Source: an uncultured Lactobacillus sp. (GTDB lineage Bacteria; Bacillota; Bacilli; Lactobacillales; Lactobacillaceae). Taken from it: a DNA stretch of 46,298 nucleotides. The translations under genes were made by a program, and so were the position numbers. Position 1 is the stretch's first letter; each line of letters starts with the position of its first letter. The stretch is taken from positions 1-46,298 of the forward strand of contig NZ_CALYQV010000010.1 in assembly GCF_945290125.1 (NCBI RefSeq), given 5' to 3'. Under the pieces are notes generated by a model that was not told the DNA's origin, ran no database searches, and was given only the letters and a program-made list of their open reading frames with translations. Positions 1,100 through 36,098 of the stretch are shown one piece after another.

Positions 1100-3034
1100 T
1101 TATTCATTGCGTGAGTATGATTTAACATCTTGTTCAATTTCACGAATAAATTCGTCAAAACTCTTTGCAATTTCGTCTTCAGTACCATAGCGACGAACGT
1201 TAACACTGTTATCCTTGAGCTCCTTGTCACCCAAAACAAGGGTATATGGTACTTTTTGTGTTTGTGATTCACGAATTTTGTAGCCTAATTTTTCGTTACG
1301 TAAATCAGCTTCAGCTCTAAAGCCTCTCTTATTAAGCTCATTACGAACTTTCTTAGCATAATCTGAATGAGCGTCCAAGTTTACGGGTATTACTTCAACT
1401 TGAACTGGAGCTAACCAGGTTGGGAAAGCACCCTTGTATATTTCGATCAAGTAAGCGATAAAACGTTCCATAGTTCCGACAATACCACGGTGGATCATAA
1501 CTGGACGGTGTTCTTCACCATCTTGACCAACATAAGTTAAGTTAAAACGTTCAGGAAGCATGAAGTCTAACTGAATAGTAGACATGGTTTCATCAGCTCC
1601 TAAAGCAGTCTTAGTCTGAATATCAAGCTTAGGACCGTAGAATGCGGCTTCACCTTCTGCTTCGACATAATCAAGGCCCATATAATCCATTGCCTTTTTC
1701 AGCATTGATTGGCTTCTTTCCCACATTTCATCATTGGCAAAATACTTTTTAGTATTCTTCGGGTCACGATAGGAAAGTCTGAAGTAGTAATCGGTGATGT
1801 CAAAGTCTTTGTATACATCTAGAATCAAAGTTAAAATCTTAGAAAATTCACTTTGAACCTGGTCTAAGGTAACAAATGTATGACCATCATTTAAAGTCAT
1901 TTCTCTTACGCGTTGTAAACCTGACAAAGCACCAGATTTTTCATATCTGTGCATCATACCCAGCTCTGCAATTCGAATTGGCAACTCGCGGTATGAACGA
2001 ATATGGTGCTTATAAATTTGAATGTGTGACGGACAATTCATAGGACGCAGCTCAAGCATTTCCCCGTCTCCCATATCCATCGGTGGAAACATGTCATCAC
2101 GATAGTGTGCCCAGTGGCCTGATGTTTTATAAGCGTCAACGTTCATGAGCACAGGGGTATAAACGTGTTGGTAACCGTCAGCTACCTCTTTATCAATAAT
2201 GTAACGTTCAACTACCCGGCGAATTGTTGCTCCTTTAGGCATCCAATAAGGTAATCCAGCTCCGACTTTGGGATCTACAAAGAATAAATCAAGATCCCGG
2301 CCAATTGTTCTGTGATCACGTTCTTTAATTTCTTCACGACGCTTAATATCCGCATTTAAATCAGCCTTTTTAAAGAAGGCTGTACCGGAAATTCTTTGAA
2401 GCATAGGGTTAGATGATTGACCTTTCCAATAAGCGCCAGCAACCGATAACAATTTAAATTGCTTAATCTTTCCTGTATTAGGCAGTAACGCGTCGAAGCC
2501 AAAGTCAATGAAGCCACCCAGCTTGTATACTTGAATTTGATTATCTTTTTCTGCTTTTAGCAATTCACTTTTATACGGATCATCTTTAAAAATTTCAGAT
2601 AATTCTGCTTTTGACATGAAAGAAGATTCAATTTTATTTCCAGCCTTAATAACTTTTTTAATTGCTTTTTCTAATTCTGGAAGTTCATTAACTTTAATCT
2701 GATTTTCTTTGTCAGTATCAACAAAAAATCCATCTTCATTAGCTGCATGTTCACCAAAATGAATCTCAGGATAAGCTTTTTTAGCAACAGCTTCAAAAAC
2801 AAAGGCTACTGTAGCCCGTAAAATATTTAAGCCTACTTCATCCTTATCGGTAATAATTGCAACTTCAGCATCTTTATTTAATTTGTAGTCCAAAGAAACA
2901 ACTCGACCGTTTACTTTTGCTCCAATAGCAGCTTTACCTAAGGATGTACCTATATCATGTGCTAAATCAGAAACTGATACTCCATCTTCATATTCCTTTT
3001 TAGAACCATCTGGCAAAGTAATTGCAAAACTCAT
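1100..3034 (-). CDS. thrS: Threonyl-tRNA synthetase with degenerate editing site
   Basis: The enzyme charges tRNA-Thr. The order is TGS domain (about 1-60), N2 editing-type domain (about 60-225), class II catalytic core and anticodon-binding domain (last ~100 aa). The catalytic zinc ligands are present: Cys334 in RPMNCPSH, the His of MMHRYEKSG and the His of [14 protein letters not shown] choose ATG at 3034 because GGAGG sits 5 bases upstream; an in-frame TTG at 3046 overlaps that ribosome site. Compared with E. coli ThrRS as I remember it, the editing motif HSCAH is ATVAF here and MCRGPH is FGFDAL, so all four editing residues (H73, H77, C182, H186) are lost. It is expressed from its own promoter and T-box leader. 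Confidence 0.95.
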
Positions 3035-3059
3035 TTTTTCCTCCAAAAATCAAATAAAT

Positions 3060-3275
3060 AAAAAAATCCCAGTGCAGTTAAGCACTGGGACGTTAATTAA
3101 CGTGGTTCCACCCAAAATTTAGTCTGGACTCCAGACTATCTCGTTGAAGATTATAATGGATCTAACCCATCTTTTTAATTTCAGGTACGAATGAGTGGGT
3201 TGTAACACTAATGGAAGCTTCCAGAATAATGCTTCTCTCTCTGAATCGTATCACAACATGTTCATTCATTGCAGT
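3060..3275 (-). promoter_or_regulatory. T-box leader of thrS
   Basis: A T-box riboswitch lies in the thrS 5' UTR. The T-box sequence GGGTGGAACCACGT is at 3113-3100. It is followed by a terminator: stem CCCAGTGC/GCACTGGG (3068-3089) and a run of T. Stem I is closed by GAATGA with TCATTC, above which GTTGT pairs with ACAAC. Between these two helices the 3' strand carries ACC (3200-3198), a Thr codon and the likely specifier; ACA next to it is an alternative. Uncharged tRNA-Thr should stabilise the antiterminator and raise thrS expression. Confidence 0.92.
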
Positions 3276-3277
3276 TA

Positions 3278-3305
3278 ATTATAACCCAATAATTTTTTAA
3301 TGCAA
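3278..3305 (-). promoter_or_regulatory. Promoter of thrS
   Basis: On the minus strand there is TTGCAT (3305-3300), a 16-base spacer and a consensus TATAAT (3283-3278), directly before the T-box stem I. This places transcription start near 3271. Confidence 0.75.
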
Positions 3306-17533: not shown

Positions 17534-19272
17534 TTAATTAGCAGTTAAACTACATAAGTTATATAAATCACCTTTTTGCTCAATCAATCTTTCATAAGAA
17601 CCTTGTTCAGTGACAGATCCATCTTTCATGAAAATCACGGCATCATATTTTTTTAATAAGTTAGGATTTAATTTATGGGTAACTACAATAGCTGTTAGAT
17701 CTTCTATTCCTAAAATGGTATTTTCAATTGCAATAGTATTTTTTTGGTCTAAAGATGATGTTGCCTCATCAAGCAATAAAATTGGCGTTTTTCTAATTAA
17801 TGCTCGTGCTATTAAAATTCTTTGCTTCTGTCCACCAGATATCTCTTTACCGTTTTCACCAACATCCATTTCAATTCCTTTAGCATTGCTTTCAACCAAT
17901 CTTCTTAAGCCAGATCTATTAATAGCATAGTTTAGTTCTTGCTTGGTAAAGGATTTGCCCAAAGTTATGTTATATCCAAGAGAATTGTTAAAAATGTAGA
18001 CTTCCTGCTGCACAATATTTATCAGTTGGTAGAGTGATGATAATTCAATAGTATTGATATTTACATCATCAATACTAATACTACTATTTCTTCCTAACTG
18101 GTAATATCTCATTAATAACCTTAGTAATGTGGTTTTACCACTTCCTGACATGCCCACAAGAGCATACTTTTTTCCTTTTTCTATTCGTAAATTAATATTT
18201 GTAAGTACTCTCTTTCCTAATTTACCTTGCTGCGGGTACGAAAAATTGACGTTAGTAAACTTAATATCTTTCTCAAATTTTTTCAGAATATGATAATTGC
18301 TGGTATCTTTTGGTTTATGTATTTTGGCCAATAATTGATTTAATGATCTAATAGCAGCCTCGCCAGCTTTTTTGTTATTCATCTCAATGCCCAATTTACT
18401 CAGCGGCAGCACGATAAAATTAACTAATTGGACAATTGCTGTGACCGCCCCAATACTCGTACTGCCATTAAAAATCATAAACAGACCGAGTCCATAAGCT
18501 ACTAGAAAAACCAAATAACCTGAAAAATCTGAAATCGCTGTCTGCGCGTCTATTATTATTATTTTCAAATTCTTTACTTATCTGCCTTTCAATATTAAAA
18601 CTCTTAATAACTAGAAAACCGGAAAGCGCATCTTTTACTTTAGAAACATAAGCGTTCTGTTGTACCAAAGCTGCATTTTGCTTTTCTTGCATTTTACCAC
18701 CTAATAAACTCATAAATATAATAGGTGCAAAACTGACTATTAGTACAGCTATTGATAGTTTCCAATTAATCATAAACATTCCAAAAATTGAAAATATTAA
18801 TTGAAAATATTAATAGAGATAAATCAGATATTACATTAAAGTAGCTTTTAATGTATTTTTTTTCAATAGTTGAAATGGTATTTGTCATAGTTGCTAAAAA
18901 AGCGCCAATACTGCTATTGTTAAATTCATTTAAATCACTTGTAATAATTTTATTAAAAATTTGTTTTCTATATTTCTTACTAAAATTGTTGCTAAATTTG
19001 TTTTTAGTCTGTTCACTAACAAAAACAGCACAGGCCAACAAAATACATACCAATAAACAAACAAATATCGTTTGCTTTAAAGCACTAACATTCCTAGCAA
19101 TTCCTGAATCAATTAACTTTTTTAAGACAAGGGCAAGTAATAAATTTATCAGTGGATAAACTAAGCCGGAAAAAATTAACGTCAGATAATAATTCAGCTT
19201 ATCGTATTCTTGGTATTTTTCATTAATATATACATCCTTCCTATTTTTAAAATTATTAATAAAAGTAATCAA
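17534..19272 (-). pseudogene. Broken ABC exporter (fused permease/ATPase)
   Basis: One ancestral gene of about 580 aa is spread over three frames. The N-terminal membrane part (19272-18766) ends early. The second piece continues with INWKLSIAVLIVSFAPII. The third carries the rest of the membrane domain and an intact ATPase: Walker A GMSGSGKTTL, signature ISGGQKQR, Walker B ILLLDEATSSLD and switch His of VVTHK. The first break is a 13-bp tandem duplication at 18786-18814: removing one copy gives the continuous LLIFSIFGMFMINWKLS. The second is a +1 shift in an AAT tract near 18556. A third is possible at the start. The fold is that of peptide/lipid exporters; the substrate cannot be told. Confidence 0.88.
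18786..18814. repeat. 13-bp tandem duplication causing a frameshift
   Basis: The unit TTGAAAATATTAA occurs twice in direct succession (18788-18800 and 18801-18813). Thirteen bases is not a multiple of three. Deleting one copy restores the membrane-domain reading frame of the ABC exporter, so this is very probably the inactivating mutation. Confidence 0.93.
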
Positions 19273-29249: not shown

Positions 29250-30029
29250 TTATTTGATAAGCGAACTAATCCATGGCACAACTTTACCTATTACCTCATT
29301 AAGCTTGGTAAAATCGCCAGTTTCAACATTGTATGTGTGATTTGCATTTTCTACAGTAAAAGAATCTACGTTAGACATGTGACAATTTTTAATAAAATTT
29401 AAACTGATATTGGGATCTAAAGTTGGATCACTGGTGCATACTTCAACTAAAATCGGATTTTTAAAGTTTTTAATGTTATTATTCAAAGTCGTTTTAAGTT
29501 CGTCAAAGAATCTGCGGTATACTAGTTCAACACCACCGCTACTAGTATGAACAATGCAGTAACCTAAATTTTCCATTTCAAATTTATCATATGCCATTTC
29601 CAAAGGTTCTGAAGTATTAATCGCACCGTTTAAAGAAACTATGATTTTAGCTGGCAAATTTGAGCAAGTAAATACTAAACGTCCACCGAGACTATGACCT
29701 AATAAACCAACCTTATTTTCTGCAACATAAGGTAAACTTTGCAAGTATTTAAAACTGGCCTTGACCTCTTCTGTCATTACTTTCATACCATAATTTTCTC
29801 TAGAATATAGGTTCTCACCCATACTGCATAAATCAATTCTGGCCGCTACTATTCCTGCTTCAACTATTTTTTCACTGATTCTTGCTAACATATGATTATC
29901 GTTGTTTCTAGAGGACATGAAGCCATGGACCAGCAACATAGCCGGAAACTTATCTCCACCATCTGGAATATCAATCTGTATTGGCACTTCATGATCAATG
30001 CACTTTAAAAACCGTAATTCTTCACGCAC
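29250..30029 (-). CDS. Alpha/beta hydrolase, esterase-like (paralogue 1)
   Basis: Cytoplasmic serine hydrolase of 259 aa with oxyanion motif HGF, nucleophile GHSLGG (Ser113), Asp in SDPTLDP and His in ANHTYN. The layout recalls cinnamoyl/feruloyl esterases and acyl-sugar esterases of lactobacilli, but substrate is inferred. I choose GTG 30029: AAGGAG lies 9 bases before it, and the protein then matches the paralogue at 35319-36098 from the first residue and in length (259 aa each). A longer frame to 30107 would run through the promoter -10 TATAAT (30081-30076). The paralogues share about 60% of residues by eye. It lies downstream of the fructose-type PTS/aldolase operon but has its own promoter. 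Confidence 0.85.
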   Translation of the reverse strand: MREELRFLKCIDHEVPIQIDIPDGGDKFPAMLLVHGFMSSRNNDNHMLARISEKIVEAGIVAARIDLCSMGENLYSRENYGMKVMTEEVKASFKYLQSLPYVAENKVGLLGHSLGGRLVFTCSNLPAKIIVSLNGAINTSEPLEMAYDKFEMENLGYCIVHTSSGGVELVYRRFFDELKTTLNNNIKNFKNPILVEVCTSDPTLDPNISLNFIKNCHMSNVDSFTVENANHTYNVETGDFTKLNEVIGKVVPWISSLIK

Positions 30030-30075
30030 TTCATTTATCTCCTTGTATATCTCAATGATTTTATGATTTAGATAT

Positions 30076-30081
30076 ATTATA
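30076..30081 (-). promoter_or_regulatory. -10 box of esterase paralogue 1
   Basis: A perfect TATAAT on the minus strand, about 47 bases before the GTG start. No good -35 is seen (TTGGTG lies at a 20-base spacing), so an activator may be needed. Confidence 0.45.
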
Positions 30082-30199
30082 CTGTTATTTTGTGGCATAC
30101 ACACCAAAACAATATGTGATTATTTTCTTATATATAAAAAGCCTGCAACCACTGGAAATTTCAATGTTCTAGACCTTTTTTTAATAATCGTAGTTATAA

Positions 30200-35318: not shown

Positions 35319-36098
35319 TTATTTTATATTTCGACAAATCCAAGGTATCATTTGTTTGTTCAATTCAATTAATTTGGTATAATCACCTGTTTTGGCATTA
35401 AAGGTGTGATTTGCTCCTTCAATAACAACAGAATCAACATTTTCCATATGACAGTTTTTGACAAAATTAAGTCCAATATTCGGATCAAGAGTAGGATCGT
35501 TAGCTGCAATACAAACCAATATTGGATTTTTAAAGTTACTAATATTCATATTAAGAGTATCTTTCATGTCTTTTTCAAATTTCTGATATATTAACTCGAC
35601 TCTCCCATCACTAGTATGTATAATACCATAACCTAACTGCTTCATTTCCAATTTATTATATGAAGGAACCATAATCTCATTGGTATTGACTGCACCATTT
35701 AACGTGACAATTAATTTGGCAGGCAGGGTTGAACAAGTAAAAGCTAAACGACCGCCAAGACTGTGACCCAGCATACCTACATTTTTTTCAGAAATATATG
35801 GTAAAGACTGTAAGTAATTAAAGCATGCCTTAACCTCATCAATCATAATCCTCATACCATATTTTTCACGTGAGCAGATGTTTTCACCCATACTGCAAAG
35901 GTCCATTCTTGCCGCAGCAATACCATTTTTGGTCAGTTGCAAACTTATTTTTTGTAACATATGACCATCCAAATTTTTGGCTGACATAAATCCGTGAATT
36001 AAAAGTATGGCAGGAAACTTTTGACCTTTATCTGGTAAATCTATTTGCAATGGTACTTCATGATCAATACATTTCACAAAACAAAGTTTTTCTTTCAT
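35319..36098 (-). CDS. Alpha/beta hydrolase, esterase-like (paralogue 2)
   Basis: Serine hydrolase of 259 aa, collinear with the protein at 29250-30029. The oxyanion motif HGF is at about 35-37, the nucleophile Ser113 in GHSLGG, Asp201 or Asp205 in NDPTLDP and His231 in ANHTFN. AAGGAG precedes the ATG. It lies 10 bases after the beta-glucoside PTS gene, so the two are in one operon with licT. No signal peptide: it acts inside the cell, so it may remove an acyl group from an imported phosphorylated glycoside. That role is inference. Confidence 0.85.
   Translation of the reverse strand: MKEKLCFVKCIDHEVPLQIDLPDKGQKFPAILLIHGFMSAKNLDGHMLQKISLQLTKNGIAAARMDLCSMGENICSREKYGMRIMIDEVKACFNYLQSLPYISEKNVGMLGHSLGGRLAFTCSTLPAKLIVTLNGAVNTNEIMVPSYNKLEMKQLGYGIIHTSDGRVELIYQKFEKDMKDTLNMNISNFKNPILVCIAANDPTLDPNIGLNFVKNCHMENVDSVVIEGANHTFNAKTGDYTKLIELNKQMIPWICRNIK

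Follow-up and report, generated by a model that had tools for sequence, protein, structure and literature searches.

Decay of the editing site in the threonyl-tRNA synthetase of lactobacilli

The window (the whole stretch of 46,298 nucleotides that was analysed) carries thrS, a gene for a threonyl-tRNA synthetase (ThrRS) whose N2 domain combines the fold of a ThrRS editing domain with an active site that has degenerated. This raises the question of whether the enzyme can still clear Ser-tRNA-Thr and, if it cannot, how the loss arose and what the domain is kept for. The relevant features are as follows.

1100..3034, minus strand: thrS, threonyl-tRNA synthetase, 644 residues (NCBIfam TIGR00418, 679.5 bits, cut-off 383.65); the sole copy found in the genome
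2843..3034, minus strand: N1 (TGS) domain, residues 1-64 (Pfam PF02824 at residues 5-62; limits computed)
2342..2842, minus strand: N2 domain, residues 65-231, ThrRS editing fold with degenerate active site (PF07973, 29.0 bits, cut-off 24; structure model; PDB matches)
2801..2815, minus strand: former HxxxH motif, now A74-T-V-A-F78 (alignment to E. coli ThrRS)
2486..2500, minus strand: former CxxxH motif, now G179-F-D-A-L183 (alignment to E. coli ThrRS)
2033..2035, minus strand: zinc ligand C334 of the synthetic site, intact (alignment to E. coli ThrRS)
1880..1882, minus strand: zinc ligand H385, intact (alignment; D383 lies at 1886-1888)
1490..1492, minus strand: zinc ligand H515, equivalent to E. 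coli H511, intact (alignment to E. coli ThrRS)
3083..3278, minus strand: T-box leader upstream of thrS (full-length match to RF00230 at 60.5 bits, with E 8e-13 over this stretch; the gathering score, 93, is not reached)

The likely start codon is the ATG at 3034, shortly after a GGAGG, while a mechanical list of open reading frames places the start at a TTG at 3046. The Rfam scan at the gathering threshold listed nothing for the T-box region, since the leader scores well below that level. The TIGR00418 profile and the Cys-His-His ligands identify the product as a bacterial class II zinc-dependent ThrRS, in which Pfam recognizes the TGS, tRNA_SAD, class II core and anticodon domains, tRNA_SAD being barely above its cut-off.

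Using E. coli K-12 ThrRS (NC_000913.3; L256) as reference for positions, H73 is replaced by A74 (codon 2813-2815), H77 by F78 (2801-2803), C182 by G179 (2498-2500) and H186 by L183 (2486-2488), so that neither the HxxxH nor the CxxxH motif of an editing-competent N2 is present. The initial annotation had claimed, from an alignment by eye, that all four editing residues are replaced in a domain that is otherwise kept, next to intact synthetic-site zinc ligands; the fetched reference agrees, with letters and coordinates correct, and C334, H385 and H515 are indeed in place. Together with D383, R363, Y462 and Q484 (E. coli numbering), the whole synthetic site is intact. The N2 domain itself has no Cys and two His, neither of which falls in the four catalytic columns. 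It had also been expected to be inactive, and loss of editing in cis would be the natural reading of the replaced quartet; in E. coli ThrRS, H73A is described as lowering the editing kcat 7000-fold, H186A 70-fold and C182A/S more than 500-fold (PMC4041444). K156 and D180 are present in the window enzyme and in 55/82 and 60/82 members, respectively, of the defective clade described below; as they remain in many members, the degenerate site could keep some activity.

Three other explanations were considered and rejected. An alignment error is excluded by phmmer, which aligns both motifs without gaps to S. aureus ThrRS (1NYQ), where they read LRHSTAH and FTDLCRGVHVP, in agreement with the alignment to the E. 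coli reference. A sequencing error is excluded because all 38 ThrRS sequences of the genus lack the four residues. Finally, even the most widespread His or Cys of N2 in the defective clade is shared by only 11/30 genera at its column, and thus no relocated catalytic set is visible.

We then surveyed the motifs within the class Bacilli. The genome of origin (117 contigs, 94% complete) encodes one ThrRS, other matches being short and of 25-41% identity. In the window's genus, 57/61 genomes have a ThrRS match at E <= 1e-60, one each, the remaining four being 54, 57, 71 and 98% complete. Within Lactobacillaceae, all 301 genomes from 38 genera gave a match, single in 300 and double in one (G099), in a search scoring up to four candidates per genome. 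Within the family, the motifs were counted in 97 loci from these 301 genomes, with between 1 and 38 loci for each genus. The defective set comprises 82 distinct enzymes (38 from the window's genus and 44 others) from 30 of the 38 genera sampled: H77, C182 and H186 are absent from all 82, and H73 from 79, being kept in L069, L101 and L102. Written in the order 73, 77, 182 and 186, the quartet of the window's genus is AFGL in 32 sequences and DFGL in six. Thus, the alignment across lactobacilli that had been proposed as a check reveals that the loss is not peculiar to the window sequence, and is the state of all 30 lactobacillus-type genera sampled. These genera were identified as lactobacilli and their kin by elimination, not by name: NCBI taxonomy places Leuconostoc, Weissella, Periweissella, Fructobacillus and Lactobacillus all in Lactobacillaceae, and by lactobacilli we mean this family minus the Leuconostoc/Weissella/Periweissella branch. 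Those tested include genomes of 3.3-3.4 Mb (G115/L051, G285/L073).

The rest of the family shows two other states. Periweissella retains the full HHCH quartet (three loci, two distinct; 2/2 in genus g19). Seven genera (g2, g7, g8, g17, g18, g29 and g38) carry HHDL, in which HxxxH is kept and D-x-x-x-L stands in place of CxxxH, in 13/13 loci (L105, L108, L112, L114-L118, L120, L121, L123-L125), as do 14/14 named loci (L177-L190) from Weissella, Fructobacillus, Leuconostoc, 'Leuconostocaceae bacterium ESL0958' and one Lactobacillaceae metagenome-assembled genome, giving 27 loci or 23 distinct sequences. Outside the family, HHCH was found in 124/124 ThrRS (120 distinct): 19/19 from eight other Lactobacillales families, 40/40 sampled from other Bacilli, and 65/65 named loci (L191-L255; Enterococcus, Vagococcus, Streptococcus, Lactococcus, Aerococcus and others). 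This kept set is a sample: it draws on 19 out of 103 genomes from outside Lactobacillaceae, and on 40 loci taken from 39 genomes out of 148 that gave a match.

Some sequences depart from the usual architecture. Three ThrRS of approximately 595-600 residues (L106 and L107 from g6, L109 from g3) can be aligned only beyond roughly residue 52-69 of the window enzyme and seem to have lost most or all of N1 in addition to having a degenerate editing site. L098, a candidate for a ThrRS without N2, is merely cut by a contig end. A genome of another Lactobacillales family (G424, f3) has two extra ThrRS-like frames of 38% identity beside its normal enzyme (C10:47210-49075 and C22:26060-27928).

To place the loss in time, a tree was built from the catalytic and anticodon parts only, leaving the editing domain out (92 sequences, including 14 of the 38 from the genus; L002 and L099 were omitted as duplicates, and L098 and L122 as truncated). 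The 30 defective genera form one clade with an ultrafast bootstrap of 100, sister to a Periweissella/Leuconostoc clade (support 99; whole family, 96). Since the defective enzymes fall in a single clade, the loss looks old and shared. An HHDL group excluding Periweissella has a support of 30 in this tree and of 99 in a tree of N2 only. The simplest history would be a single decay along the lactobacillus stem and separate C-to-D and H-to-L changes in the Leuconostoc line after Periweissella had branched off. We also considered a horizontal origin for the intact Periweissella site, but in the N2 tree the Periweissella domain joins that of the HHDL enzymes (20/20 members, support 100), which makes vertical retention likelier than borrowing.

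The domain that lost its catalytic residues has changed rapidly. With topology fixed and ranges from branch bootstrap, the ratio of N2 to catalytic branch lengths is 1.83 (1.59-2.08) in the defective clade versus 0.61 (0.53-0.71) in the other families, 0.66 (0.50-0.92) in the HHDL group and 0.60 (0.30-1.02; three branches) in Periweissella; mixed stem branches give 1.47. Relative to the catalytic part, N2 thus changes threefold faster in the defective clade than in editing-competent families. Mean column entropies point the same way (30 defective sequences, one per genus, versus 19 from other families): 1.55 versus 0.68 for N2, and 0.39 versus 0.38 for the catalytic part. The anticodon domain drifts slightly (1.33 versus 1.20). 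N1 drifts as well (1.63 versus 1.03), and relaxation is therefore not confined to the editing domain.

Median dN/dS values (Nei-Gojobori, a rough measure on related, non-independent pairs) for N2 and the catalytic part are 0.122 and 0.062 in the window's genus (346 pairs), 0.147 and 0.037 in g4 (10 pairs), and 0.071 and 0.036 in g15 (3 pairs), where N2 is only mildly raised. The HHCH relatives give 0.024 and 0.052 (402 pairs), and the HHDL group 0.059 and 0.046 (31 pairs). Constraint on the defective N2 is thus relaxed but not abolished, and a domain still under purifying selection must do something. In the kept set, conservation reaches 95% or more at 52 N2 positions; in the defective clade, 18 of these are still conserved, and 12, including the catalytic quartet, R183 and R207, mostly carry other residues. 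What is best conserved of the rest lies beyond position 194, in a block around LLSVAGAYW. Over the full length of the protein, the defective clade has newly fixed only three positions, none of them in N2.

The predicted structure is consistent with a retained domain. An AlphaFold model of window residues 1-240 has a pLDDT of 91.1, and its N2 fold matches 1qf6_A and 1nyq_A with a query-normalised TM score of 0.89. The best PDB matches (1qf6, 1nyq, 6vu9 and 1tje) are led by the E. coli, S. aureus and S. maltophilia enzymes, followed by chains of the mammalian mitoribosome large subunit, which we take to be mL39, a structural protein derived from ThrRS. The initial claim that the domain is kept is thus borne out by the predicted fold as well as by the PF07973 match. 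A Weissella HHDL domain also models well (pLDDT 93.6). With an N2 whose constraint comes close to that of HHCH enzymes, the HHDL arrangement represents a possible Asp-based editing site.

The reading that we consider most probable, with good though not full confidence, is that editing in cis died once in the lactobacillus ancestor, that N2 serves as a tRNA-docking scaffold and that some misincorporation of Ser for Thr is tolerated. The post-transfer site would have been inactive since the common ancestor of lactobacilli; N2 would have been kept to dock the acceptor arm of tRNA-Thr and support aminoacylation; accuracy would now be a matter of the zinc-dependent synthetic site and of whatever pre-transfer hydrolysis takes place, and the Ser-tRNA-Thr left over would be tolerated because the exchange of Ser for Thr is mild. 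We infer these points from the E. coli mutants cited above, from growth data and from work on yeast. E. coli carrying ThrRS C182A is described as showing wild-type growth in LB as well as at 42 °C, while a strong artificial load of Ser at Thr positions slowed E. coli (PMC6918089), and a review mentions a mild growth defect with excess Ser that becomes severe without heat-shock proteases (PMC10057733). Since a strong load is harmful, tolerance has limits. Yeast ThrRS without its N-terminal domain is reported to be impaired in aminoacylation, possibly via acceptor-stem binding (PMC4267643). Lactobacilli probably insert Ser for Thr more often than their relatives do, and the size of this error would depend on the selectivity of the synthetic site. 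A wider scenario, in which such mistranslation has been constitutive since the lactobacillus ancestor while the sister Leuconostoc, Weissella and Fructobacillus rebuilt a well-constrained HHDL site and Periweissella kept the ancestral one, is offered tentatively, the odds being somewhat against it.

Another explanation, which seems unlikely, is that the synthetic site came to discriminate more strongly against Ser, or improved its pre-transfer hydrolysis, and that post-transfer editing, no longer needed, decayed without mistranslation. Positions 328 and 336 (E. coli numbering), near the zinc loop, are E and S in 111/112 and 112/112 aligned Lactobacillaceae sequences, respectively, but V and H in 110/124 others. 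As E328 and S336 are already found in the HHCH Periweissella, a change in the synthetic site could precede the decay. They also occur, however, in two HHCH Streptococcaceae (L203 and L229) and are therefore not sufficient, which weakens the idea of a pre-adaptation; moreover, C334, H385, H511, D383, R363, Y462 and Q484 are identical in enzymes that lost and kept the editing residues. Loss of an editing domain is described as being able to accompany higher specificity (PMC11415595). The yeast mitochondrial ThrRS, which has no N2, is reported to perform pre-transfer editing, but this alone failed to prevent formation of Ser-tRNA-Thr (PMC4267643).

The initial annotation had offered editing in trans as an option. 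A free-standing deacylase, such as an INS member (YbaK or a ProXp-ST-like protein) or DTD, would clear Ser-tRNA-Thr and leave fidelity unchanged. ProXp-ST1 and ProXp-ST2 are indeed described as able to act on Ser-tRNA-Thr (PMC11295145). We searched for a replacement editor in 58 representatives (30 defective, 7 HHDL, 2 Periweissella and 19 from other families). Each of the 30 defective genomes has DTD and at least one free-standing INS-domain frame besides ProRS; in the genome of origin, the INS proteins are ProRS, a YbaK above its NCBIfam cut-off and a third protein which is not YbaK by that cut-off. The representatives nevertheless argue against a compensating gain. At least three INS domains were found in 9/30 defective, 3/7 HHDL, 0/2 Periweissella and 7/19 other-family genomes, showing no enrichment, and DTD is equally present in the 19/19 other-family genomes. 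Across the representatives, G086 and G210 gave two DTD matches each, and the HHDL genomes G112 and G061 gave none. Judged by the length of the reading frames, no free-standing ThrRS/AlaX-type domain (PF07973, tRNA_SAD) was found in the 30 defective genomes, where the profile detects AlaRS and ThrRS only (the ThrRS copy being missed in G124 and G069); in the genome of origin its two matches lie in frames of 904 and 649 residues. The two free-standing SAD frames, of 383 and 395 residues, belong to the editing-competent G385 and G404. Among HHDL genomes, G067 has SAD in a 417-residue frame, its only AlaRS-like match, and G112 a 55-residue scrap of 14 bits.

Nothing among the SAD, INS and DTD proteins of the 58 representatives tracks the loss of editing, and no Thr-specific editor was recognisable among them. 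Nor is there a second, editing-competent ThrRS, another check that had been proposed: none was found in the genome of origin at 94% completeness, and 300/301 family genomes gave a single match. Editing in trans thus finds no support so far, and we regard it as quite improbable, be it by an editor of a new type or by an altered YbaK or DTD. One INS-domain protein of the genome of origin (L126, G000:C16:37346-37720) is free-standing, 161 residues long and far below the YbaK cut-off; as 21/30 defective genera have only one free-standing INS frame, proteins of this type may be patchy in distribution.

It is very improbable that the N2 pocket has kept its editing activity through a different chemistry, based on the 2'-OH of the substrate and backbone groups: the retained domain, its purifying selection, K156 and D180 in many members, and a DTD-fold proofreading module described as using no side chains (PMC4491819) would fit such a mechanism, but the 12 largely replaced positions include the quartet, R183 and R207 and belong to the 52 that are best conserved in N2, conserved His or Cys residues are absent and none of the three newly fixed positions lies in N2. 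An idea based on oxidants was also discarded. C182 is peroxide-sensitive, and lactobacilli, as peroxide-producing and catalase-poor bacteria, might have dropped it for that reason; streptococci make peroxide too, and C182 is present in every Streptococcus ThrRS among L191-L255.

The preferred reading, a single loss of editing in cis with N2 kept as a scaffold, concerns one synthetase rather than proofreading at large, as far as tested. In the genome of origin, AlaRS keeps HTATH and CGGTH, and LeuRS keeps GTGAVMAVPAHDTRDYEFA, and their preservation argues against a general collapse of proofreading; by eye, IleRS reads GTGLVHTASGFGEDDY. We take these AlaRS, LeuRS and IleRS stretches to be editing motifs. 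A probable ValRS lies on a short contig of the same genome.

Among known systems, one close parallel is the natural degeneration of ThrRS editing in Mycoplasma (review PMC7373986), where ThrRS, PheRS and LeuRS are affected. As in that case, the window enzyme, judged by its sequence, combines a degenerate editing site with an intact synthetic site. Li et al. 2011 is reportedly the primary paper on these Mycoplasma synthetases. Mycoplasma has reduced, host-restricted genomes and has often lost editing in several synthetases; in lactobacilli, by contrast, one enzyme is affected across 30 genera with genomes up to 3.3-3.4 Mb, and the AlaRS and LeuRS motifs accompanying the window enzyme are intact. 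The editing-competent enzymes of E. coli and S. aureus share its domain order, predicted fold and synthetic site, and differ in having HxxxH and CxxxH. Anabaena T2 is described as another natural ThrRS with impaired editing, but it keeps both motifs and is backed by a competent T1, whereas the window enzyme has neither motif and the search for a second ThrRS gave none (PMC4787780). The yeast mitochondrial enzyme, reported to function without a post-transfer editing site and to mischarge Ser, lacks N2 entirely, unlike the window enzyme, in which it is present and degenerate (PMC4267643).

In the literature on ThrRS or editing in lactobacilli, Leuconostoc and lactic acid bacteria, no report of the loss appeared among the matches listed. 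According to citing reviews, Melnikov et al. 2018 is said to be a broad survey of editing loss, and an earlier notice of lactobacilli there is thus possible. Relative to the literature consulted, the extent of the loss across lactobacilli, its single ancient origin and the HHDL variant in the sister group appear to be new. The lactobacillus family is mostly free-living or food-associated, and many lactobacilli are cultivable food bacteria. The reviews consulted link loss of synthetase editing mainly to parasites or host-restricted organisms with small genomes (PMC10057733, PMC7373986, PMC11415595). If our reading is true, the loss of one editing site across 30 genera, in genomes of up to 3.4 Mb, breaks this association. 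The HHCH, HHDL and lost sites would then form a natural replicated system inside one family, in which the need for Thr-to-Ser proofreading at all, the use of N2 after loss of editing and a working Cys-free editing site become testable.

Two further observations, both made by eye, concern other genes of the window. An ABC exporter-like gene on the minus strand (17534-19272) is split into three frames of 344, 103 and 168 residues and is probably a pseudogene. Two similar alpha/beta hydrolase-like genes (29250-30107 and 35319-36098, minus strand) lie on either side of a sugar PTS/aldolase/regulator block, and the pair looks duplicated.
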